A stretch of 64,000 nt of DNA from Physcia stellaris (taxonomy: Eukaryota > Ascomycota > Lecanoromycetes > Caliciales > Physciaceae). The notes beneath the pieces were generated by a model. That model did not search any database and had not been told where the DNA came from. It saw nothing but the letters and a program-made list of their open reading frames with translations. The stretch covers positions 434,001-498,000 of the forward strand of contig JABSSW010000004.1 of the NCBI GenBank assembly GCA_018902385.1. Reading direction: 5' to 3'. Both the position numbers and the translations under genes were made by a program. Positions 1 through 35,814 of this stretch are shown in pieces. Each line of letters opens with the position of its first letter. The first letter of the stretch is position 1.

Positions 1-341
1 GGGTAAAGTGTTGATGTGTAGACAAAGTCATTGTTTGCATAAAGGATCTTTCTCCCTTCCTGATGGTAGAGTTTGCATGTGCTAAGGATCCCAAAGCCGA
101 TATCGTCCTGGCCTCTTGGTTCGTCTTTGACAGTATGGTAGATTTCACCACCACTCCAGTGAAAATTAAGCAGTGGATTCTGGGAGGTCAAGCATTCCCG
201 CAGAATACAGAGTTGCACCTCGAGAGGTAAGCGAGGTAGAGATACTGCCGATGGGGGAGTGAGGGTAGATGGGTCTGAAGCTTTTCGGATAGGCATGAGA
301 TCCTGGTGCCGGAGAAACCTTGGATTCAGCTCTTTTGCCAT
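1..341 (-). CDS. F-box-like protein, 3' part cut by the window edge
   Basis: The frame is open from an ATG at 339-341 (MAKELNPRF...) to the left edge, so the C-terminal part is missing. It carries the F-box-like stretch LPLEVQLCILRECL, then RGQDDIGFGILSTCKLYHQE and GRKILYANNDF. These match, block by block, the neighbour at 1209-2057 (LPLEIQLLILSHCL, RGQDDISPQILHTCKLFYHE, GRRILYDNNEF). The two are therefore diverged tandem paralogs on one strand. Proteins with this layout are numerous in fungi. Some are thought to be substrate adaptors of SCF ubiquitin ligases, but the substrate cannot be read here. An upstream non-coding exon or a different ATG (294-296) is possible. Confidence 0.7.
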   Translation of the reverse strand, partial: MAKELNPRFLRHQDLMPIRKASDPSTLTPPSAVSLPRLPLEVQLCILRECLTSQNPLLNFHWSGGEIYHTVKDEPRGQDDIGFGILSTCKLYHQEGRKILYANNDFVYTSTLY

Positions 342-1208
342 GTTGACGGTTTGATGCCACGAGCTTGGAACACCTAGTCTTATCTTAAATTTGATCCTGT
401 GAAGGCTGTAATCCCGGTGCCACACACCAATAGAGCTCTGCTGTCTCAGGATGTGACGCAGTCACATCTAATTTCTCTATGGTGGCTGACGTTGGTGTCA
501 AGAAGAGCTGTCTGTCCGATGCAATTTCGCATACCAGAGGTTGGATGGAGTCGGTGGAATTCTGCATACGATTTTTGGGCCACAGTGGTGAGCATGTACG
601 AGGAGCCGGATTTTTTCGGCTTCCCAACCCGGGAAGGTAAGAGAGAGAGACCTCTGCGGTGGGTTACTGGTAATGATCTCTGCGGCTGAGCAGGAATTGA
701 AAACTGCCTACGTCGGCACTGCTTACAGTAAGTAGAACAGGGATGGACCAGGAGCAGATACGTTTGATAATACTGAGATAGGTACACGAGAATCTTAGCA
801 CTTGCGCTCCTTCCTGATCTGATCACGTCTCGACTGACCCACTCTCTCCCCAGACCTGAAGTCCCGTTTAAAGCTTGTTCTCAAGCAATCGCTGCTACCA
901 TTCTAGTACAATGGTGGTGCCACGGTACTGATTTAGTGAGACCCTAGGAAACGCTTCTTGCATGCCTAATCAGTCTTCCATCTCCATTATCTTCAGACTA
1001 TCCGTCAGATCTAGTGCATGGCTATCCTCACTAATCCATCCCATGACTTCCCTGTGCCCAAACCAAGTCAGGCAAGGATCCTGCTTTGCAAGCCGAATAT
1101 CAGAAACGGCGTGTTCCTCCGCTGGTATGAAACGCTCCTGATTCCGGGTTTAGCAATCCCATGTTTTGAAGCTTCATCCTGGACAGAGATGAACAACAAC
1201 AAGGGTCA
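342..1208. other. Intergenic, between the two F-box-like genes
   Basis: Several short open frames cross this stretch on both strands, but none shows a known domain, a convincing splice pattern or similarity to the neighbours. It should contain the promoter of the left gene and the 3' UTR of the right one. Confidence 0.6.
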
Positions 1209-2057
1209 TTATAAACTTACATATTTCGCTCCCCTGAGGCCCATCGAGTGGCCAATTTTCCCATCATCATGAAGTAAGCACGAGAAGCGCATCATCATTC
1301 GTAAGCCGTTCGCGTCGCGCGTAAGGCCCGTCAGGACGACCTCGTCAAGCCCGCTATGTAGGGTGCGCCAACTCTCCTTTACCTCGCGCTGGTGCGGAAG
1401 TTCTTGCGCTCTCCAAGAGTGGTTTCGAGAGAATTGAAACTCATATTGACGAGGGGTGCTCAAGGAGTCCTTCGGACTGCGGACGTAGTCGATTCTAAGA
1501 CTTTTCAGACGCGGAACTTCATGAATCCAGCAAGCATTGTTCAGAATCGATCTCCAGAAGGTGTACCAGTATGGTCCCCAGGTAGGTCTGAGGATAAGTC
1601 GCTGCAGATCAGGTAGACGCGCCGGTTGCCGTGACTGACTCCTCAACCAGCGGGCTTCAATGACCCAGATGGGAGCTACAGATCCATTCCGAGCTTCGCT
1701 AGAACAGCTACAGAATGAGGGTCTGCACTTCAAGCATTTATTTGAGGTCGTATAGCAGAATTCATTGTTATCGTATAAAATTCTGCGACCTTCGTGATAG
1801 AAGAGCTTGCAGGTGTGGAGGATTTGAGGAGATATGTCGTCTTGCCCTCGCCGCTCGCCCGGTACAGTAACAGGGCATTCGGATGCAGGTACCTTGAAGT
1901 TGAGCAAAGGTACAGGAGCGATAAGACAGTGGCTGAGGATGAGTAATTGAATCTCTAGGGGAAGCTTAGAGATGGTGAATGGTGGGCTGGGACTATTAGT
2001 CAAGTGGACTTGGGTGATATGAGTGGGTTGTTGTGATCCACCGGCCTCTTTCGGCAC
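1209..2057 (-). CDS. F-box-like domain protein, 282 aa
   Basis: This is a single uninterrupted frame. Residues about 30-50 (SKLPLEIQLLILSHCL) form the F-box-like helix, followed by a conserved segment with HTCKLFYHEGRRILYDNNEF. After that come Cys-rich (CLKCRPSFCSC) and Trp-rich stretches. Family members in filamentous fungi are usually 250-400 residues, so the length is normal. The likely role is substrate recognition for ubiquitin ligation, inferred only from the motif. It is paralogous to the truncated gene at the left edge. The first ATG of the frame is taken as start; no intron is needed. The degree of divergence between the copies suggests an old duplication. Confidence 0.7.
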   Translation of the reverse strand: MPKEAGGSQQPTHITQVHLTNSPSPPFTISKLPLEIQLLILSHCLIAPVPLLNFKVPASECPVTVPGERRGQDDISPQILHTCKLFYHEGRRILYDNNEFCYTTSNKCLKCRPSFCSCSSEARNGSVAPIWVIEARWLRSQSRQPARLPDLQRLILRPTWGPYWYTFWRSILNNACWIHEVPRLKSLRIDYVRSPKDSLSTPRQYEFQFSRNHSWRAQELPHQREVKESWRTLHSGLDEVVLTGLTRDANGLRMMMRFSCLLHDDGKIGHSMGLRGAKYVSL

Positions 2058-3189
2058 TGTTGCTGTCTGCTGTCTGCATCTTATGGATGATTGAGGTAAT
2101 GCCGAGAGCGATCAAGGTGGGCAGACAAAGGCTATCAAATGTGGAAGATTGGCGAAAACAGCTTCCTCGTATTTGATCACAATTGTCGGTGAGATCTAAG
2201 GCAGGTGAAAAGGTAAGTTTAATTGGACACAGTGTTGGTCAAGGTATGTATCATGTGGCCTGGCCTGGTCTGTCGCGCAGCTCCAAGGAGATATGAGCCA
2301 TGGACTCCTCCGGCTGTTCGACCCTGGACAACTGATATTTCCTATAAAAACCCCATCTAATGTGTAAAAATAATACGAAGACGCATGCACTCAAAGACCG
2401 TTTCAGACTCGGCAAAATCACTGAAATCACTGAAATTGTTTTGCAGATTACTACCTTACCTTATCGGAGCAAAAGATTTGACAGACTGCAAAGATTCACA
2501 GTTTTTCATATTCTAGCTGCGTCTCGGATCTATTGGTTTGTGCTGCTGTGCATGCCAAATTACACGTTTGACTTGCAGTCTTGCAGACGTCTGGATGCGC
2601 CGGGGCCTCGCAGGCATCGAAGATTGCAACGGTGTGCGCAGGCTCGAGTGGAGTGTGGCAAGCATTCATGAGGTATGGTCAATGTGTTGGGAGTTGTAGG
2701 TAGCAAGATCTGTAATGAGAAAGTAGGATCAGGTGATTCTGCTTAGATGTTGCCTGGTGTTGAAGTGGCGAGAGGCAAAAGCAAACGCAGGAGCGGAGCC
2801 CCTGAAAAACCAACGGCGCAAGATTAAGCGAGCCTATTAGCTTGGCATTACCGAGGCGTTGCATAGCCAGACCCGCATTTAAAGACCTTCAAAGACCGCC
2901 AGATGCCCCCATCAGCCCATCTCCAAACACCGCCAAGACCGCTGCATTTTAGGTTGACCAACACCGCCCGCCAATCACCGCAACACTCGTCTCCCCAGTC
3001 TGTCTTACCATGATTGCTGTTATCATGAAGTGACCATGATTGTCCGGTGGAGTAACGCGACCCCGATCAATCACCATAACTGTTCCTGTCTCTTTTTCAA
3101 TCGTCTGTTCATCAGCCTTGCACACGGTGGTGAGGAGAAGCTGAGAGCAAGGCAGCGATAGAGCGTTTTTCCAATGAGTGAATCACGAA
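2058..3189. other. Intergenic between F-box-like gene and MOT1
   Basis: Two divergent promoters must lie here. I see no credible gene. A small direct repeat (AAAGACC, at about 2880-2900) and a CCAAT box close to the MOT1 start (about 3170) are the only visible structures. Confidence 0.6.
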
Positions 3190-6100
3190 ATGACTTCGAG
3201 GTACCGACGCGCCCGTTTGTTTTTGATTGGCCGCTAGCTGACTGTCACGTGCCAGACTTGATCGACTAGTAAAGTAAGCCCGAGCCACTGCCAACCAATC
3301 AACATCTCCACTGACCTTTTTGGATCGCAGGCTTCTCGAGACAGGCAGTACTCCGCTGATCCGGAACACGGCTGCCCAGCAGCTCGGAGACGTCCAAAAG
3401 CAACACCCTGACGAACTCTTTCATTTGCTGAACAAGGTCATCCCTTTCTTGAAATCCAAGAATTGGGAAACCCGATCAGCCGCCGCCCGAGCCATCGGCA
3501 GTATCGCCGAGAATGCTCCCAAATTTGATCCTAACGGTGAAGCCGACAGTACTAAATCCGAGCCAAGCGACGTCAAGGTCGAAGATGGCGATGATGTCGC
3601 TTCTTCGGCACAAGACCAGCTACAGCTCGACAAGCTGGACATCAATGCCATCTTGACCCACGGAAAGAAGCTGCTCGGTAGTGGGAGCAGAGAGCATGAA
3701 TATGCTCTGGCCGCTTTGGAGCCCTCGGATCGCTTGGCGCGACAGAAGAAGACCTTGAATTCGAGGTTGGGTCTCAATGGGGAGTATGTAGAGGAGGAGG
3801 CCATCGAGGAGCAGCCCACTAATGGCGGTATCACGACTGGAGTCCCTCGATTAGACACATCCGGGAGCAGTTTCTATGGCCAAGATACACTACAGTCGCC
3901 GTCGCCATACACCGCGCTATCGCCACGTGCTTCGTTTTCACAAACCCCTACAGAAGATTCAGCCCTGAGTAAACGCCAATTGAATCAACTCAAGCGAAAA
4001 AACAAAATGAACGCGAAGAGTCAAGCTAACAAAGTTCGTGTCGTCGATCTCTCGGTCAGAAGACAGAGTACAGATGTGACGAACACTCCGTTAGCTCCGG
4101 AGCCCACTGCTATCAAGACAGGCATCAAGTCGGAATTCGACCAGGATGGCAAAGCCGATCTCTTTTCTCTTGAACGGGGCAACGTCGATGAGGACACGAA
4201 GCTAGTGTCCGACTACAAAGGACCTATTATCCCGGAAAAGCCCATTATCCAGACCGAAGCGGAGGAGGATGGCTTATCATGGCCGTTTGAACTGCTCTGT
4301 GATTTCTTGAAAATCGACTTATTCGACCCAAACTGGGAGATACGGCATGGCGCTGCGATGGGCCTACGCGAAGTCATTCGCGTGCACGGTGCAGGAGCTG
4401 GTAGAGAACGCGGGAAAAGTCAAAGTGCAAACGATAGATTGAACAACTCCTGGCTTGATGATCTTGCTTGTCGTCTGTGCTGCGTTTCTATGCTTGACCG
4501 CTTTGGAGATTACACGTCCGATACTGTGGTCGCACCGATCCGCGAAACTGTCGGCCAAACCCTGGGGGCTCTCTTGTCCCATTTATCAGCTCCGTTAGTG
4601 CACTCAGCCTACCAGGTACTATATCGGATGGTCATGCAGCATGATTTGAAGATGTCAGCGCGAATATGGCAGGTGTGTCATGGTGGTATGACAGGATTGA
4701 AGTACCTTGTGGCTGTCCGGAATGATCTCCTGGTTAATGACAATGGCCTCATGGACGGTGTGGTCGAAGCAGTCATGATGGGTCTTGCAGATTCAGATGA
4801 TGACGTTCGCGCTGTCAGTGCAGCTACCCTAACACCCGTTGCAAAAGAGTTCGTGGGTCTTCGCCCAACAGCCCTTGACCAGCTGATGAACATTGTCTGG
4901 GAATGCCTTGCGGACCTGCGAGATGATCTGAGTGCAAGTACAGGGTCAATCATGGACCTTCTTGCGAAGCTATGCAGCTTTCCCGAAGTACTACACGCGA
5001 TGCAACAGAATGCCGCAAGAGATCCCGAACAATCGTTTACTACCCTCGTCCCAAGGCTTTACCCCTTCCTGCGTCATACGATCACAAATGTTCGATCAGC
5101 CGTGCTACGTGCTCTGCAGACTTTCCTCAGTATCGGTGACGCCAGCACTAAAGGTTGGGTCGATGGAAAAGCCTTACGTCTTGTCTACCAGAATCTGCTA
5201 GTGGAAAGAAATGAACCGACACTGGAGTTATCGCTTGCGGTATGGCATTCACTTTCAAACACCCTTGTTGAGAGAGATCCACAAGAGTTCGCAGTCCACT
5301 TTTTGTCTATCTCTCATGACCTCTTCCGGTTGGCTATGCAACCCATAGGCACATCACGAAATCCAATACCAATGGATACTTCATATTTCATGAGACCATC
5401 GGGTCAAATGTACGCTCCGCCTGCCGCAGCGCAGGGTAAATCCTCTCCGCACCATACTGGCGAACCTGCCCCTAAACGAAGACGGCGCTCAGACAAAAAG
5501 GAGGAGCCTCCGCAGTCGGCTCATAACGTTGACGCTCACATGATCCAAGGTGATGTAGACCTTGTTGGTTTGGATGTCTTGATTCGATCCAGAGTCTTTG
5601 CCGCAAGGGCTTTCGGGACAGCCTTGAGCCAATGCGTGCAAGGGCCGTCGATCGACCGAATCTTAGAAGAAGTTATGTTAGAGTTGCAGTCAGCTCATTC
5701 TACAACACAGATGATAGCATGTACTATTATTGAAGAATATGCACGGACTCATACCCATCAGTCCAACCTCACCGGAAAGCTCAATTCCCAATTACGATCG
5801 ACCCTTGAGACGGACCGACCGGACAGCTACCAGGATCTATTGCCCTACTTACGGATCGTCCGCTCGCAGTGCCATTCATTACTAAATTGTTTCCGAGACC
5901 AAGCACATGTACAGCAGTCGAAACTTCCTTCGATCGCAGTTGTTGTTCAGGGAGATGTTGGTGCTGGACCATCCGCTTTCTCGATAAAAAATGCAGACGC
6001 TATAGTTGGTCCGGATTTTGATCGCTTAAAAAGGTCTCTTACGCCTGCGCAGAGGATTACATCCAACAAGCCACTCGATGATGCCCGGATCAATGCCATC

Positions 6101-13437: not shown

Positions 13438-14461
13438 CTATACTCCTGGCATGCCAATCACCTCCCTCATACTTGGTATTGCTCGCGGAAGAAAGTAGAC
13501 GCTGCCGATGGCGACAAAAGCCACGACTAAGCCAGTGAACTGAGTATGGTCAGTAATAAACCTTTAAGGATAGAGTCTGCTCTCACCTTCTCGAACCATG
13601 TGTGGAAATAGGCAGCCGTCATCAACAGCATCCACCACGACAGCCCCGCGACAACCAGTGGTACACTCAAGCCTTGGATTTCCTCTTTCTCCTCACGCTC
13701 CTTCTCGCCTTCAGCCTCTCTATCCGCGGTGATCACATCGCCTTCTTTCCTCTTGATCATCCTCGTCTCTCGGCCAGCAACAGCGGGTAGAATTTCCATC
13801 CATAGGAACGCGCTTCCCAACACCAAGAGGAAAACGTGCCCACTGATATCATGACCTCCCTTCCATTGCCCACCTGCTAGCTTACAAGCCGCAGCCGTGA
13901 AAAGCTCCCTCTTGTCGCTCATGCTGTCCCTTCCCTCTTCCGTCCGGAGAAGCTCGCACTGACCTCCCGTATACGTGAACCCTCGATCGATAATAGGTGG
14001 CCCAAAGAACCACTGCGTCAGCGCAGCCCACCAGAAGGTCATGAGCCCCCATCGTATCAGACCCTGCACACGCTTTCTGTTTAGGACTAGTCCGCCACTG
14101 GGCCCTGTGCTTGGATGCAGGAAGAGGAACATGACGAAAGCGAGGGTGGTCCAGAACCATCCGATCTTGACGAAGAAGCGATTGAAGACGTTGCGTTTCA
14201 GCGCGAAGTAGGAGGGTGCGAGATGCGAAGGGTGCGATTGAGATGCGGCACTGTAGGGGCTGCTCGGGCGTGAGGTTCGAGAAAGGAGAAGAGTGAACCG
14301 AGGAGGAGAGTTGATGGGTAGATTGCGAGCAGTAGGGACTCAAGCGGTGTAGGTAGGAGTGGTGATCTTGTTGAAGGAGGACTTGTCGCACCAGGTGTGT
14401 ACGACTCGGATTCTTTATGGGTTTGCGTGCCGTTTCGGCGATGGACTGTGGATGAGTCCAT
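13438..14461 (-). CDS. FIT2: FIT2/Scs3-type fat storage-inducing transmembrane protein, with one-base frame break
   Basis: FIT proteins are ER membrane acyl-CoA diphosphatases needed for lipid droplet formation. The diagnostic motif GGHDISGHVFLL and the second conserved His in AAYFHTWFEK are both present. A 47-nt intron (13540-13586, GTGAGA...CTGAC...CAG) leads to the last exon (FTGLVVAFVAIGSVYF...), ending at 13438. The N-terminus from the ATG at 14461 contains SPLLPTPLESLLLAIYPSTL and LLLGSLFS. The reading frame then changes before SYFALKRNVFN. No GT donor lies between the two frames, so splicing cannot explain it. One missing base in the G4/C4 run at 14256-14259 would repair the frame (977 nt present, 978 = 326 codons expected). 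It is either a sequencing error or a recent pseudogene; I favour error. Confidence 0.9.
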
Positions 14462-14809
14462 GACCCTCGGAGAATTAAAGATTCTGAACGAGTGGGAGCT
14501 CTGGAATGGGCGTAGGTAGGTGTTTTAGGATCAGTGTGGTCATTTGAAATATTTTCATGTGATGGGTACCTAATCCCTGTAAAATAATTTGTAGCTTTAA
14601 CCCTATGTAGCCCTAAGTTTTGCGTGTCCAGTCTCGCGCCAGCCCCTTTTTCAAGGCTGCCTGCGAGGCTCGTGTAATCCAAGCTACATGCTTATACTAG
14701 CTGTAGAAGAGCGATAGATATGTCTTTCTAAGTCTCAGCATCGAGCTTCGACTCCCCTTGTCACAGCTTCTCGTATACCGCACCGTTTCTAACACCTCGC
14801 ACATATTGA
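14462..14809. other. Upstream region of FIT2 up to the retrotransposon
   Basis: Base composition is ordinary right up to the 5-nt target duplication ATTGA (14805-14809), so the hypermutation next door has not spread into this flank. No gene is seen. Confidence 0.65.
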
Positions 14810-14963
14810 TGTTACAGGTATGTAGGGTGCAACGTGTTTATTCTTCGTGATAATACTATCTACCGTACATGTGATGAATGTGAATTATTGTACAGAGTTT
14901 GCACGTTAACTTATAACAGAATAACGTCTTGACATTGTTTTTGATGATAAATTTATTTTAACA
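14810..14963 (-). repeat. Left LTR (3' LTR of the Copia element)
   Basis: It aligns without gaps to the right LTR, 132 of 154 identical. Its left part (up to at least 14863) is the unmutated version at 6 variable sites. Its right part (from 14877) carries the T/A version at all 16 remaining variable sites. Confidence 0.97.
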
Positions 14964-15650
14964 TTTTTTTTCGAATTTGCAAAAATATAAAATCATGATG
15001 TTTAATTCATTTCGAACATGTCGATAAATCGTTGATATTTGAACGAAAATAAAAGTTTGATGAAATCGTCGATCGACATAATGTCGATCGTTATGTATTG
15101 AATTCAATGCGATTTTTTTAATTTCGTTTTTTATATAATGATATATGATATCGACGTGCTTGATACGATCGTGATGTATCGAATTTTCATTGAATGTTTT
15201 GACGTTTTGATTGTCAATATTTATCAATATTTTGACGTAATTGTTTGTTTGATTTTGAATTCGTAAATCAACGAATAATTGTTTGAATCACGTAATTTTT
15301 TTGACGACGAATGATATGATCATATATTCGACAACGCAAATAAATGTGATCACGATAAATTGAAATTTTGACATTCAATTTATTGAATTTTCGTTGAATA
15401 AAAACAGATACGTTTCGATGAATTTTTTTGTGAATTTGTCACGAATTCAGTTTGCATCGCAATATGCTTCGATGTTTAATTTCTTGTTGAAATTATCGTC
15501 GTAAATTATGCAAAAATCGATCGTGAAATTGAAATAAATTATAACACGTTTGATTGTTTTGATATGATTAAAATTGAAATTTTGAACAAATCGATTGATT
15601 ATGAAAATCGCATTCGTTACATTTGATTTGATTTTTATCATTGCAAACAC
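14958..15650 (-). pseudogene. Copia RNase H domain, degenerate
   Basis: Recognisable pieces are INRFVQNFNFNHIKTIKRVI with a Y-C-D-A-N remnant near 15450, and the C-terminal DNQ...NENSIHHDRIKHVDIIYHYI block near 14980-15220. Both match the Copia RNase H layout (an SRF...P.HW.A.KRI segment, then an R-x-KHIDI-x-YH-x-I segment). Trp and Gly positions are lost. Confidence 0.8.
14964..14972 (-). other. Polypurine tract next to the 3' LTR
   Basis: Read on the minus strand, G followed by eight A sits immediately before the LTR TG terminus, where plus-strand DNA synthesis is primed. The original tract probably had more G, lost to the same mutation process. Confidence 0.6.
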
Positions 15651-15663
15651 GATGAATTTATCA

Positions 15664-16275
15664 TTATTTGATATTGTTTGATATTTTGATCGATAATTTG
15701 ATTAACGTTGAAAATTGAATCAAAAATTTTTTCATGAATGTTCGAATTGATTTCGCATTTTGTAAATCGAATTTCTTAACAACGCGTTGAATATATGCTT
15801 TTTGATTAAAACGAATTACGTGCATATCGCGATTTCTGAAAACGATCATATCAAAATAAAAACTTATCGATTCAAAATCAATCATATCGAAAACGCTATT
15901 GAATTTTGTTTTTGTTCTGTTAATCATGATTTTATTGAAAGCAATAATTTTGATGTCATCGATTCATGTAATAATGATAAAATTCTTGAAATCAACGTTC
16001 GTGACGAATATGTTTTGATTTGCGTCGAAAAAATTGAAAACTAACTTTTGCTAAAAAAATTCGAACAGTCGTTTATATTAGAATTTGAATGATTGTTTCA
16101 GATTATACAATGCTTTGTTCAATTTGCAAATAATTTTGTCATTGTCACATTCAATCGAATATTTAACGTAAATATTTGAATCAATGAATTCGTATAAAAA
16201 CGCAATTTTCACGTTCATTTGTTCAATTTTCAAATTCAAAAAAACGACAACGACGAATAAAACTCGAAAAATCAT
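15664..16275 (-). pseudogene. Copia reverse transcriptase domain, degenerate
   Basis: The strongest match is VFLNLKIEQMNVKIAFLYEF followed by CKLNKALYNLKQS, the Copia RT signature (E-x-x-Q-M-D-V-x-x-A-F-L and K-L-x-K-A-L-Y-G-L-K-Q). The catalytic Asp of that first motif reads Asn here, and the Gly of YGLKQ also reads Asn. Downstream AYIQRVVKKFDLQNAKSI matches the conserved RT C-terminus. Confidence 0.88.
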
Positions 16276-16907
16276 TGATTTGACGACGAAAACAAAAATT
16301 TGATCAAAATCAATGTCGTATTGTTGTAAAAAATTTTTGACGTATCATTTAATTTTGTATCGTATTACAACGTCATCGACATTGCGTTTGAATTTGTAAA
16401 TTCATTTATCGTTCAACGATTTTTTTTCATCGAACGTGAAATTTACTAAATTTCAAATGTGATTTTTCGATAAAAAATCGAGTTTTTTTTTTCATTGTTT
16501 TTAATCATTGTGAGAAATGAAAATTTCGTGCGACGTCGTTGTAATTATTTGATTTTTTCTCGTCGATCGTCAACATTGTTATGAATTTTTCGAACGAGAA
16601 AACGTCGATGTTTTCGACGTAATCGATCAACAATGAAACAAAATTGATCGTATCAAATTCAGCGTTTGTAATTGAAATTAATTGAAAATCAACAATGTTG
16701 TCGAACAAAACAATTAAATCATTTAAATTTGAATTTCAATTTGTGAACAATTCACGCATTGCTAAATGAAACATCGTGAAATTGACAAAAATTATGACAT
16801 TGTAAACGATAAAATTTATAAAAAAATTTATTCGAATTGTTTTTTGTTTGAACGCATTGTAACGTATTTTTGAAAAAATTTTTGAAAATTTTTTTGTTTT
16901 TGTGACG

Positions 16908-17939
16908 TCATTGATTTTTGTATAATGATATTTGGAAATTTGATTTTGATATGTAATCGAATTTCAATGTTTTGAAAAATTTGAAATTGAATTTTTGTTT
17001 TTTTGCAATGAATTCAGTGTAAATAACAAAAAAATTTATCATTGTTGAATCAACAATTGATTCGATAAAATTTTCATCGAATTCGATATCAATTTTTGAT
17101 GTTGATTTGTGATCATAAATATCGAAATTTTTGACGCGTTCGATTTTCTGATTAATCGATATGTAAATTCGATAAATGATGTCATCGTCGTATTCGATGA
17201 AAATTTTTTTTTCGACGTTCGACTTCAAATAATTTTTGATTTTCTTGTTGATGATAACGTAAACGATTGATTCGAATGAATACATGTTCGTCAATTTCGA
17301 AAATTGTCTGTATAAATTTTCGAATGATGACAGACTTTTTAAATATGAAATTGAACGTCGATTTTTGATATACGTCATTGCATGTGTGATGTTTGATCAC
17401 AAAAAATTCGATATGTTTCTCGTCAATAGCGTTGTCTTGATCATAATGATGAAAATACGTTGATGTGTTTCGATTACATTATTGACGTTTTGAACATCAA
17501 TTGAAATTGAATTGAATTCGATGCTTTGATTGTCAAAATAATTGATTGATTGCGTGTTGCGAAATTCGCTGTCATAATTTGTTCGTACGATTTTGACATC
17601 AGCGTTGAATTGACGTTTGATTCAATTAATGTATTTGATCAAACATTGTAATCATTCATGTTTATTTTTGACGATGTATACTTTCGTTCAACGTGATTTG
17701 TCATCGATAATATTGATATAATAACGTTCATTTTCAAAATTTTCGATCGTTATTGATACTAAATCGATGTGAATGATATGAAACGCTTTTTCGACATGAT
17801 GAATATTCTTTTTATTCGATTTTTTTTTTGTTTTGATTAATTTGCAAACATCACAATGATTGTTTTTGCAATCGTTTTGATAAAAATGATTCAATTTTTT
17901 TAAATATTGACGTAATAAAAAAAAATTCATGTGATTCAA
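16908..17939 (-). pseudogene. Copia integrase domain, degenerate
   Basis: A zinc-binding remnant (H...CDVCK) precedes the core motif FHIIHIDLVSI...RYYINIIDDKSR at about 17690-17830. The C-terminal part (TYIKNRRSISYLKSLSSFEN, later FIEYDDD..YRIY) follows at about 17000-17370. Stops and frame changes break it. Confidence 0.85.
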
Positions 17940-18487
17940 ATTTCGATGTCATACGATAAACGACAATGATGATGTTGTTGACAATGCAATCATTTAATGT
18001 GATTGCAATTTCAAAACGTATAATTCGTTGTTTTGCAAAAAAACATATTCGATCGATTTGTTTTGATGTTTGAAAATGTGATTTTCAATGTTTCAATAAA
18101 CGTCTTGTTTTTCGAATGCTGATATTGACAGCAAATTTGTTGACGAATTTGACATGTAAAAAATTGACAAATCGATGAGCTGATCGTTTGCATTGTTGTA
18201 AAAAAAAACGAACAGAAATTTGATCATTTTTTTTTTTCAACAATGAAACGAGTCTTGTTTGCAATTACAACATACTCGATGTGAAATCTGAAAAAATGTA
18301 TGAAATTTCGATTTTTGCACACGTGAATATTGACGTTTGAATTTGTATATCACAACATATCATTGATTGAATGATTAATGAACAAAATTTGTTTTCAAAA
18401 TTCAATCAACGACGTTGATTGTTATTGTGAATTTTGAATTTTTTTCAAAATTTTGTCGTATGAATGATCAAACATGTTTTTGTCAAT

Positions 18488-19830
18488 TCATTTTTTGAAA
18501 ACGTTTTTTGAATGATTATAATAACATTTTTCAAAATCATGTTTGATGAAATCGTTGTTTATGCATTTTTGATTGATGCAAAAAAAATCGATGTATTCAA
18601 ATTTTGATGTATTGAAACGAATACGTTTAAATTTTTCGAAACGATCAACGATCAATGCAATTGAGTTTGATTTTGTTATCGTATCGATGATGACTTTAAC
18701 GAAATTCAAAAAAAAAATTTCGATTTCGATGAAATTTGTGTTTTCGAAAATTCATTCGTCACGTTGACGAATCACGAAATAATTGAAATGAATTAATTTG
18801 TGCATTTTGAACAACAAAATATTTTGACAAAATACGTCGACAATGAATTTCGAATCAACGTTTTCGAATCAATTGTTTTAATGATTCAACGATTTTGATG
18901 TAAAATTCGACGTTCTAAAATAACAAATCTGTTAGATGATCAGTGTCAGAAATCTGTTTTAACATTAGATGACGATTCTTTGATTAGCTTTAAAATTTAA
19001 ATCGACGCTAAAATTCAAGTCTTTTACATCTACTTGCTCTAGCAAAATCGATCAATAAAATCGAAAATGATATCGACGAAAAAAACGAAAATATTTTTTT
19101 GAAACGTTTTGTTATTTTTGTTCAATAAATCAATGATGTTGAATTCGTTATGACAATGATAAAAAAACGATGATTAACGTTCATTGCATTGAACAAATAA
19201 AAAAAAATTTTTATTTAAATTTCGTTCGTGTTTTTCGACGACGATGATGAAATTCGTGAATTTGATTTTCGTTTTTGCATCGATGAAATTTCAATCGATA
19301 TTTTTGTTGTGTAAAAATTCGACGATAAACATTAATTTTATTGATAAATTGATTGTTCATTCAACGTGATTGACTCGAAAATCATTTCTGACGTCAATTT
19401 TTCAATTGAAATATTGCTCGAGTTTTGAAATAAAAACGACAGAATTGTGTATGATGTTTGACGTGATCATTGTGATGTTTGAATTTGAAAACTTGAATTG
19501 TATAAATGAAAAAAAAAAAAAAAGCGTATGTAGAAAGTGAAATCGTGTAAAACGTGTGAATTTTACATCGTACTTATTTTTTTTTTCATTTCGTAACAAA
19601 TGAATTCGAAATATCAATTCGAAACAATAACGAATTCATTGAATCATTGAATCGTGTATGTAAAATTTCGTGTTTTTTGAAAACGTTTTCATCGAAATCG
19701 AATGATCGATCGTGCGTTCGAATTTGACGTTCGTTTGAACGATGAATAACGTTTTTATCGATCGACGTCGATGTTGATTTTTGAATTTTTGAAAAATTAA
19801 ATGACGATCGTTAAAATAAACATTATGCAT
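18488..19830 (-). pseudogene. Copia gag region, degenerate
   Basis: It lies between the 5' LTR and integrase. A zinc-knuckle-like pattern survives near 18540-18590 (CINNDFIKHDFEKC, with the second Cys replaced). The N-terminal part has no recognisable motif and is broken by stops. A less mutated island interrupts it at about 18908-19045. Confidence 0.6.
18908..19045. other. Island lacking the hypermutation signature inside the retrotransposon
   Basis: Unlike its surroundings, this about 138-nt piece keeps many CT and AG dinucleotides (TCT, GCT, CAG, TAG). It contains a 9-nt direct repeat AAATCTGTT (18925-18933, 18950-18958). It is flanked by GATGTAAAA (18897-18905) with its inverse TTTTACATC (19022-19030). 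It could be a later small insertion; the ends are not certain. Confidence 0.5.
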
Positions 19831-19995
19831 TTTATTGACGACATTAAATGACGATAAATTCGTTGTGAATTCAATTTGATGTTTTCGAATTTGATCGTCG
19901 TTTAATCAATCAAAAATTTCTCGATCGATGCGTAAATCAACGTTTGAACGTTGTAAAATAATATGAATCGATTCGAATGATATTTGACAAACATT

Positions 19996-20010
19996 GTCGA
20001 ATTCATAATT
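19996..20010 (-). other. Probable primer binding site, initiator tRNA-Met anticodon-arm type
   Basis: The minus strand just inside the 5' LTR reads AATTATGAATTCGAC. If the element's own mutation pattern is allowed for, this fits complementarity to the anticodon arm of fungal initiator tRNA-Met (which contains GGGCTCATAACCC). Drosophila copia and yeast Ty5 use such half-tRNA primers. The match is an inference from mutated sequence. Confidence 0.5.
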
Positions 20011-20164
20011 TGTTACAAATATGTAGAGTGCAACGTGTTTATTTTTCGTGATAATATTATCTATCGTACATGTGATGGATGTGGATTATTGTACAGAGTT
20101 TGCACGCTAGCCTATAACAGAATAACGCCTTGGCATTGCCTTTGGTGGTGAGTTTACTCCAACA
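20011..20164 (-). repeat. Right LTR (5' LTR of the Copia element)
   Basis: It is the mirror of the left LTR. Its left part (to 20064) carries the T/A version at 6 variable sites, and its right part (from 20078) keeps C/G at 16 sites. Read on the minus strand, a TTATAG element lies in the spared promoter-side half. Confidence 0.97.
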
Positions 20165-20434
20165 ATTGACGACGAGGAAGCACAGAGTCGCGTCGACGCT
20201 ACTCAGTGGCCAATCGTGTGGCTGTATTGAGATTGGGGCGTTGCGATATCCAGAGACCCTGAGACCCTTTAGGAGTAAACATAGATAGTATCCAAGGTTT
20301 CCAACGGATATTCTCAGTTAGCTATGAATGAGTCGCGAAACTCGTTCTGGAACCCAGCAGGTTGCCACTTCCGCCAAATGCCATTCATGAACAACATTTC
20401 TTTGATTCTCATAGCCCGTGAATAGGAGTGATTT

Positions 20435-34955: not shown

Positions 34956-35814
34956 ATGGACACCATGTCGATTCCTCATGATTCTAAAGACACAAACGTC
35001 TCGGAGGAGATCATAGTGAAGAGCGAGCCATACGACGACGACTGCATAATGTACGCCGACATGCCGCACCCAACCTACGGATAAAACTCCATTCATATCT
35101 ACACGAACCCTATGCTGACAATTCAGCGTTGAAACCACGGAGCACGAAGATCCCATAGCCCGGCTGAAGCGGCTGAAAGGTTTCGATCAGTCCAGATCGA
35201 AGAACATCGAACCAAGTGACGACGAACAAGCCTTCGACCCGAAATGCGATATTGATCAGTCATACGACAACGACGACTACGTGCCGTCGTCGGATCACGA
35301 CTCCAGCTCGTCTTCAGGTGTGTCTACTTTCGTCCCCTCCCCATGATTATCAGCCTCACCACCGCATGATTCCCCAATCTGCAATATTCTAGAATCATAC
35401 TCCGATAATGTTCAGAGAGTATCTAATCGTATCATAGCTGCTCGTACGCCCACACCCCCCTTATCCTGCCAAGCGGCCGTCAAACGGAGTCACTGGCCCC
35501 GTCAGCATCACACACCTCCTCCGACGCCCACTCCCTCTCGAAAGCGTAAAGCTGAAGACATCATGATTCCGGAAGGGACACCGTCCTCTAAGCTCAGCAA
35601 ACGTGCTCCCAGGATCTCGGTCTGGCAGAGTCGTAGATCACTGACGCCATTGTCAGGAACACGGTCTAAGGATCAAAAGTTGGCGGTGAAGAGGAAGCGG
35701 CCCACGAAAACTGTGATCGATGAATGCAATGAATGGCTGTGGGAAGAGCCATGGATTTCACGGAGAAAGAAGATGAAGGTTACGCCTATCTTAGTTGAAG
35801 GAGAAAGCGAGTAA
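34956..35814 (+). CDS. Small acidic/basic nuclear protein of unknown function, 235 aa
   Basis: Exons are 34956-35050, 35127-35317 and 35393-35814, 236 codons in frame, with CTGAC branch sites. The N-terminal half is acidic (EPYDDD, QSYDNDDYVPSSDHDSSSSS) and contains a VKSEP motif resembling a SUMOylation consensus. The C-terminal half is basic and Pro/Thr-rich, with TPSRKRKAED, KRKRPTKT and SRRKKMK as likely nuclear signals. I do not recognise a family. The mix of acidic patch, basic patch and TP sites suggests a chromatin or transcription-associated protein. Expression data would be needed to confirm the model. Confidence 0.65.

Follow-up and report, generated by a model that had tools for sequence, protein, structure and literature searches.

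Origin of the CpC and CpT depletion

A single transposon in Physcia stellaris raises the question of which process could remove cytosine in front of a pyrimidine and largely spare it in front of a purine. Classical RIP, as in Neurospora and most Pezizomycotina, prefers CpA, acts pre-meiotically in the cross and depends on RID, while methylation-driven decay prefers CpG. The transposon lies in a stretch of 64,000 nucleotides (the window), and the initial annotation had placed it at 14877-20064. Its true span is 14810-20164, with ATTGA flanking either end, and its features are the following:

14805..14809, no strand: left target-site duplication ATTGA; the identical five bases recur at 20165-20169
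14810..14963, minus strand: 3' LTR, the mutated side at 16 of the 22 C:G/T:A differences
14964..20010, minus strand: Ty1/copia interior, its CpC and CpT sites saturated with C-to-T changes in either strand
15733..16431, minus strand: RVT_2 reverse transcriptase match, E 1.2e-30 (C4:449733-450431)
20011..20164, minus strand: 5' LTR, the mutated side at 6 of the 22 differences
20165..20169, no strand: right target-site duplication ATTGA, same as the left copy

Both LTRs measure 154 bp, and since coding runs on the minus strand, the LTR with the larger number of mutations (14810-14963) stands at the 3' end. LTRs, a short target-site duplication and an RVT_2-type reverse transcriptase are all present, as is usual for Ty1/copia; the family assignment was made from the RVT_2 and SH3_retrovirus matches of a related copy, L013. 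The RVT_2 match is interrupted by 3 TGA, 1 TAG and 1 TAA.

Mutation pattern within the window

All 22 differences between the LTRs are C:G versus T:A, as originally counted, and their contexts (11 CpC, 9 CpT, 2 CpA, 0 CpG) were reproduced together with the observation that in 15001-15120 all 14 cytosines precede A or G. Relative to the targets available in the LTR pair (CC 13, CT 15, CA 26, CG 10), 20 of 28 CpY sites differ versus 2 of 36 CpR sites (Fisher p = 2.5e-8). As these LTRs belong to one insertion, the mutations arose after integration. The interior (14967-20010, 5,044 bases) holds CC 0, GG 1, CT 55, AG 32, CA 245 and CG 281, with a CpG O/E of 3.21; in the 57,000 window bases outside the element the O/E values are 0.95 for CC, 1.07 for CT, 1.11 for CA and 0.87 for CG. 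Within the 64-kb window the loss of CpY is confined to the repeat element: the 52 CpY-poorest 300-bp segments, with CpY shares of 0 to 0.27, are exactly those starting at 14801-19901, the next-poorest (0.36) starts at 35001, and the mean over the window is 0.47.

Copies of the element across the genome

Nineteen copies were compared with L013, the least-mutated copia copy detected in this 44-Mb genome; the two LTRs of L013 are identical. C-to-T changes were found at 4193 of 4267 CpC sites (98.3%), 5208 of 5882 CpT (88.5%), 689 of 7677 CpA (9.0%) and 151 of 6253 CpG (2.4%), equally on both strands and with a small effect of the 5' neighbour (NCC.976-.992, NCT.83-.93). The idea that cytosine is changed before a pyrimidine, as determined by the 3' neighbour, holds on both strands and in several families. 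CpY as a single class was right as to the dependence on a pyrimidine, but the order is graded, with CpC ahead of CpT. Likewise the sparing of CpA and CpG is strong but not absolute, for CpA is mutated at 4-25% in seven full-length copies; in four copies CpA mutated roughly 39 to 78 times more slowly than CpC. CpA to TpA does not dominate among the 19 aligned copies, and an ancestor already devoid of CC, CT, AG and GG does not fit either, since less-mutated or intact relatives retain them.

In the 5' LTR (20011..20164) all 6 mutated sites lie inside the 54 bases that come first when the window is read forward. The outer LTR parts of the element are less mutated, which may reflect an edge-of-homology effect or an influence from flanking unique DNA. 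L024 is mutated right up to its truncation edge, and the edges of nested family-2 elements are not spared. A CpC-only stage, suggested by segments in which CC is close to 0 and CT lies around 0.9-1.0, was rejected: CT is reduced too in the mutated right flanks of L014 (CC+GG 3, CT+AG 15) and L032 (0 and 12; unmutated left flank of L015, 27 and 39), so that a graded preference is enough.

Other repeat families

In the RVT_1 family three copies were compared with the intact copy L048. L051 is mutated at 158/192 CpC, 111/234 CpT, 5/221 CpA and 1/190 CpG sites, L052 at 179/194, 179/238, 14/220 and 5/190, and L053 at 193/196, 221/233, 24/221 and 6/189, so the degree of saturation varies; transversions number just 4-7 per ~1,700 bases. 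L051, with 275 C>T/G>A, 14 T>C/A>G and 4 transversions, has the excess of transitions that RIP in the broad sense requires. Eight LTR pairs pooled gave CT 65, CC 45, CA 15, CG 1 and other 5, and a second LTR family CT 213-258, CA 21-42 and CG 3-31 per pair. The CpY dominance proposed for many families is thus borne out in several, as the copia copies, the RVT_1 family and the second LTR family agree. Residual differences in the saturated pairs L021/L026 and L023/L027 are CA 23, CT 23, CG 15 and CA 20, CT 12, CG 5, respectively. Long similar repeats free of CpY mutation also exist (L048/L049, 96%; L040/L041, 97% over 4.2 kb), which indicates that mutation does not reach every repeat, comes in episodes or has ceased.

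Consequences for coding capacity

Within RVT_2, RVT_1, DDE_1 and DDE_3 matches 742 TGA, 143 TAA and 8 TAG stops were counted, an excess of TGA expected from TGG-to-TGA changes through CpC mutation. New stops relative to L013 comprise 19 TGA, 18 TAA and 1 TAG, so that the weak CpA activity has to be taken as real. Gly codons are retained in 0/136 cells and Pro codons in ~2/427 (copies versus L013), so the change goes beyond TGA. The coding effect is unusual: TGG becomes the codon readily turned into a stop, and Gly and Pro codons are nearly eliminated.

Candidate enzymes and the favoured explanation

A search for RID and DIM-2 homologues, as suggested at the outset, was successful for both: two RID/Masc1-like genes are located on C5 (EQT triad) and C6 (EET triad), their gene models predicting motifs I, IV, VI, VIII, IX and X, and one DIM-2-like gene with its motifs on C3. 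The EET triad is named for B. cinerea Rid in a figure legend (PMC6709928, Fig 3), which taken by itself would hint at Leotiomycetes, and according to the same source catalysis by the RID family had not been demonstrated in vitro.

We consider a repeat-directed, RIP-like process with the specificity CpC>CpT>>CpA>CpG, turning C into T in either strand of the transposon copies, to be the best explanation (probability roughly 0.78). The target C would be chosen by its 3' base, CpC first, CpT ~2-3 times slower, CpA ~40-80 times slower and CpG ~95 times slower or more. Mutation may be carried out by one or both RID-type enzymes, or by DIM-2, with the CpY preference presumably located in the target recognition region of the enzyme and the action perhaps a burst during the sexual phase, Neurospora-like. 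An altered RID-type enzyme may be the cause of the CpY pattern.

A slower route is rather unlikely, namely CpY methylation, e.g. by a DIM-2-like enzyme, followed by gradual deamination of 5-methylcytosine with no RIP-type burst. The DIM-2-like gene and the range of saturation among copies agree with it, as does the preference of Neurospora DIM-2 methylation for CpT given in a 2026 review (PMC13297926). However, L051 has 269 of 426 CpY sites mutated versus 4 transversions in 1,692 bases, an excess apparently far beyond expectation for slow decay, and Dim2 of Z. tritici is described as methylating chiefly CG and CA, hardly CT, and as increasing CA mutation (PMC8016269). CpG-type hypermutation or decay of 5mCpG was discarded on the 151 of 6253 CpG changes and the interior CpG O/E.

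Editing of single-stranded DNA or cDNA by an AID/APOBEC-like deaminase is very improbable. Its chemistry, C to T, would be identical, and the coding-strand bias of L013 (GG O/E 0.54 versus CC 0.85) is compatible with cDNA editing, but in the 19 copies the strands are equal and the preceding base, which such enzymes read, is nearly irrelevant; LTRs within one insertion differ; TGA-rich stops occur also in DDE transposase matches, and DDE transposases use no cDNA; and the pol-like stretch of L013 has 9 TGA and 1 TAA in frame instead of the TAG expected from editing the second C of CC. The early view that the pattern resembles neither APOBEC-like editing nor CpG decay is supported, CpG being the least-affected context. 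That the composition is ancestral, or TGA decoded as Trp in these elements, can practically be dismissed: the pol-like stretch is indeed poor in Gly and Trp codons in every aligned copy, L013 included, but LTR pairs from single insertions and the comparison of L048 with L051-L053 reveal the changes directly, and in L043, L046 and L048-L050, which come from this genome too, the CC O/E is 0.91-1.01 and the reading frames, open over 571-1,024 aa, contain 10-17 Trp and 39-50 Gly.

Significance

RIP is held to be CpA-preferring almost by definition, and in this genome the usual target preference appears reversed. The three standard RIP indices are negative in 16/16 mutated copies (TpA/ApT 0.37-0.53, composite index -0.63 to -1.18), so index-based surveys would overlook such mutation, and a RIP-negative index need not equal absence of RIP. 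It is about an even proposition that the RID-type enzyme of this lineage, perhaps after duplication into two paralogues, was re-aimed from CpA to CpC/CpT and that such index-negative systems may occur widely among other fungi. If so, CpC/CpT systems would have been scored RIP-negative because the standard indices rest on CpA and TpA; index tools are built on TpA/ApT and CpA+TpG (PMC6714961). The two RID-type paralogues form a natural pair for asking what determines target choice in the RID family.

Comparison with known systems

Like RIP in Neurospora and other Pezizomycotina, the process saturates repeats with C:G-to-T:A changes on both strands in a 3'-neighbour context, and genes of the RID and DIM-2 types are present here too. 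Unlike canonical RIP, with CpA preferred and TpA raised, it mutates CpA at 9% versus 98% for CpC. In a Z. tritici duplication 240 of 242 mutations were reported at CpA and 2 at CpT (PMC10294615), and a survey of 1,239 fungi describes CpA preference as common to RIP-like defences (PMC12543289).

The initial statement that no CpY-preferring RIP has been described holds in part. A CpT component is published: CpT is the leading RIP signature, with CpA second, in M. oryzae and B. cinerea T4 (PMC4352252), CpT-to-TpT ranks first or second in Magnaporthe oryzae, Botrytis cinerea, Sclerotinia sclerotiorum and Anisogramma anomala (PMC4352252, PMC10998396), and CpT was termed the dominant form among RIP-capable controls (PMC7882544). 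For CpC-first, CpA-sparing repeat mutation no precedent was found in the literature consulted. CpT-rich RIP is thus already known, and the CpC-led, CpA-sparing order may be new. Some of the genomes with a CpT component likewise are reported to have two RID-type proteins, and the C6 gene shares its EET triad with B. cinerea Rid (PMC6709928), but in those systems CpA goes along with CpT, whereas here CpC leads and CpA is minor. AT-rich regions of Botrytis are described as TpA-rich (PMC6417074). In contrast, TpA is not raised here (TpA/ApT 0.37-0.53).

CpG hypermutation is known from Basidiomycota, at TpCpG in Microbotryum and in Rhizoctonia solani AG8, and it resembles the present case in being C-to-T in a non-CpA context. 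For AG8 the tabulated spacing (genome/repeats) is shortest for CpC, 214/301 bp, with CpA at 422/490, CpG at 370/583 and CpT at 491/539 (PMC4014442, Table 2), possibly a near precedent; its authors read the data as CpG-biased heterozygous SNPs across genes and repeats alike. In contrast to AG8 and Microbotryum, CpG is the least affected context in P. stellaris, and within the window the change is limited to repeats.

Mutation of the window element

The mutated element and a neighbouring open frame lie in the window at:
14810-20164, minus strand (coding): Ty1/copia element, 5,355 bp, with 154-bp LTRs and an ATTGA duplication on both sides
13527-14339, minus strand: open frame matching the FIT family (E 2e-75), about 470 bp from the element

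The initial annotation claimed 22 differences between the two LTRs, all of them C:G versus T:A, and this count was reproduced, the context in the copy keeping the C being CpC at 11, CpT at 9, CpA at 2 and CpG at 0 sites. Relative to the targets available in the pair (13 CpC, 15 CpT, 26 CpA and 10 CpG), 20 of 28 cytosines preceding a pyrimidine (CpY) were changed versus 2 of 36 preceding a purine (CpR) (Fisher p 2.5e-8). The interior retains 0 CC, 1 GG, 55 CT and 32 AG dinucleotides and 281 CG. When the 64-kb window is cut into 300-bp windows, the 52 with the lowest CpY share are exactly those of the element, with a clear gap to the next poorest. The frame with the FIT match shows no sign of mutation spilling into it.

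Spectrum in the copia family

The assembly to which the window belongs (contig C4) spans 43.97 Mb in 147 contigs, and a search of it for the copia LTR gave 40 scored matches among 58 candidates; 20 surrounding stretches were taken. The reference copy L013 (G000:C20:567800-573052; GC 0.45) has LTRs with 0 differing sites and the same five bases flanking both sides. Matches of its pieces to RVT_2 and to a retroviral SH3-like domain assign the family to Ty1/copia. Among the aligned copies L013 shows the least mutation, yet it is not intact, as its pol-like stretch holds 10 in-frame stops, 9 of them TGA. Identical LTRs together with in-frame TGA point either to a light hit sparing the LTRs or to copying from an already mutated element.

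The spectrum was taken over L013 positions 200-5050 from 19 of the 20 aligned copies, including the window copy and leaving out the solo LTR L022. The partial mutation of L013 itself lowers the number of CpY sites and is no source of the bias. Both strands agree (CpC.979/.983, CpT.862/.903), and the preceding base has a small effect (NCC.976-.992; NCT.829-.932, GCT lowest).

Mutated cytosines by context
Comparison; CpC; CpT; CpA; CpG
19 copia copies vs L013; 4193/4267 (98.3%); 5208/5882 (88.5%); 689/7677 (9.0%); 151/6253 (2.4%)
Copia copy L015 vs L013; 387/388; 533/534; 175/702; 20/559
RVT_1 copy L051 vs L048;.823;.474;.023;.005
RVT_1 copy L052 vs L048;.923;.752;.064;.026
RVT_1 copy L053 vs L048;.985;.948;.109;.032
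L049, intact sister of L048; 5/195; 7/239; 4/221; 1/190

Replication in other repeats

A further family was compared in six pairs among four copies:
nested in the copia copy L019: second LTR family, 197-bp LTRs, 43 matches from 40 scored candidates

Pairwise contexts over repeat families, which the initial annotation had proposed as a check, bore it out: CpY-to-TpY is dominant in the copia, second LTR and RVT_1 families. The LTR pairs within eight elements, seven of the copia family and one of the second, hold 126 C:G/T:A differences (CT 65, CC 45, CA 15, CG 1) and 5 others. Each pair of the second family differs at 213-258 CT and 4-26 CC, and 0-4 CC are common to the two copies; CA differs at 21-42 and is kept at 495-532, CG at 3-31 and 490-501, respectively. 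The RVT_1 family (40 scored among 227 candidates) offers in L048 an intact reference with a 1,024-aa open frame and a CC O/E of 1.0. The three mutated copies taken against it carry 4-7 transversions each over about 1,700 bases, and L049 has no CpY bias (table). Relative rates CC:CT:CA:CG, obtained by 1-exp(-kt) from L051, L052 and the copia copies L017 and L014, are about 39-78 : 21-32 : 1 : 0.2-0.4. Two further AT-rich pairs without remaining CC, which also show more transversions, have residual differences of CA 23, CT 23, CG 15 and CA 20, CT 12, CG 5; thus CpA and CpG changes do accrue after CpY exhaustion.

In the partly mutated L051, GCT is mutated less (17/57) than CCT (39/62), a difference absent from L052, and CpT states of neighbours are weakly correlated on the same strand (phi 0.11), not across strands (0.02).

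Stop codons across the genome

By the genetic code, CpY mutation gives stops from TGG (to TGA) and not from CAA, CAG or CGA, and mainly TAA and TAG stops are expected under CpA-type RIP.

Stops in domain matches
Domain; TGA; TAA; TAG; rows; stop-free rows
RVT_2; 401; 101; 3; 137; 4
RVT_1; 250; 33; 3; 150 scored of 527 candidates; 10
DDE_1 (hand-summed); 44; 3; 0; 10; 1
DDE_3 (hand-summed); 47; 6; 2; 23; 2

The sum is 742 TGA, 143 TAA and 8 TAG, counted over related copies, a few of them overlapping, and hence not over independent events. Stops new relative to L013, however, number 19 TGA, 18 TAA and 1 TAG (TGG>TGA 17, CAA>TAA 15), which counts against a pure CpY footprint; L013 already lacks most Trp codons, and weak CpA activity is real.

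Edges and escaping repeats

Across copies, in window orientation, CpY mutation in 20-bp bins begins at.40,.09 and.33, then reads.94 (60-79),.30 (80-99) and.55 (100-119); beyond that most bins exceed.79. At the other end, the final 80 bp show.13-.30 per bin, compared with.65-1.0 deeper in the element apart from a single bin at.58. The outer LTR parts are partly spared in all aligned copies and in the window LTRs; the transition is abrupt and lies at about 60 bp on one side, at about 80 bp on the other. However, the truncated copy L024 is mutated up to its edge, and the nested edges of the second family show no sparing. The 300-bp flanks of the copia copies L015, L016 and L017 are unmutated on both sides; in L014 and L032 the right flank carries mutations.

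Some long, similar repeats carry no CpY hits (L048/L049, 96%; L040/L041, 97% over 4.2 kb), so that the process either works incompletely or in episodes, or has ceased. L040, L041 (G000:C30:312799, C2:1503015) and L042 represent a long repeat of normal GC, CpY-unmutated, of which incomplete, diverged copies are numerous in the rest of the genome; L040 has no open frame of 150 aa.

Candidate enzymes

The search for RID and DIM-2 homologues suggested by the initial annotation yielded PF00145 matches at four places in three genes, one DIM-2-like and two RID/Masc1-like. The DIM-2-like gene on C3 has a 1,118-aa open frame with ENV and PCQ motifs and matches chains 9bap and 9baq (E 5e-188), titled DNA (cytosine-5-)-methyltransferase. 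The RID/Masc1-like genes on C6 (L033) and C5 (L035), 40% identical over 174 aa of the catalytic part, possess motif IV as PPCQ.FS and motifs I, VIII, IX and X; motif VI reads EET in the former and EQT in the latter. They share an intron position, and the predicted models would be open over 515 and 935 codons after removal of introns. EQT or EET instead of ENV is given as the mark of the RID family in the available text of one study, which lists EET for B. cinerea and P. destructans (PMC6709928). Judged by sequence, all three genes are candidates for setting the CpY preference, if any of them does.

Comparison with known RIP

The RIPper cut-offs for RIP, as far as the source text was available, are product >1.1, substrate <0.75 and composite >0 (PMC6714961); all 16 of 16 mutated copies above 1 kb fall on the 'not RIPed' side, with TpA/ApT 0.37-0.53, substrate index 1.08-1.64 and composite -0.63 to -1.18. 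In the literature searched, of partial coverage, no CpC-led, CpA-sparing repeat mutation was found, and an earlier report is possible. According to the accessible parts of the respective papers, CpT is already published as leading or second RIP context (PMC4352252, PMC10998396, PMC2621366), and CpT-to-TpT is termed the dominant form in RIP-capable controls (PMC7882544). In R. solani AG8, heterozygous C/T SNPs lie closest together at CpC in Table 2 of the partly available report, though its authors stress CpG (PMC4014442).
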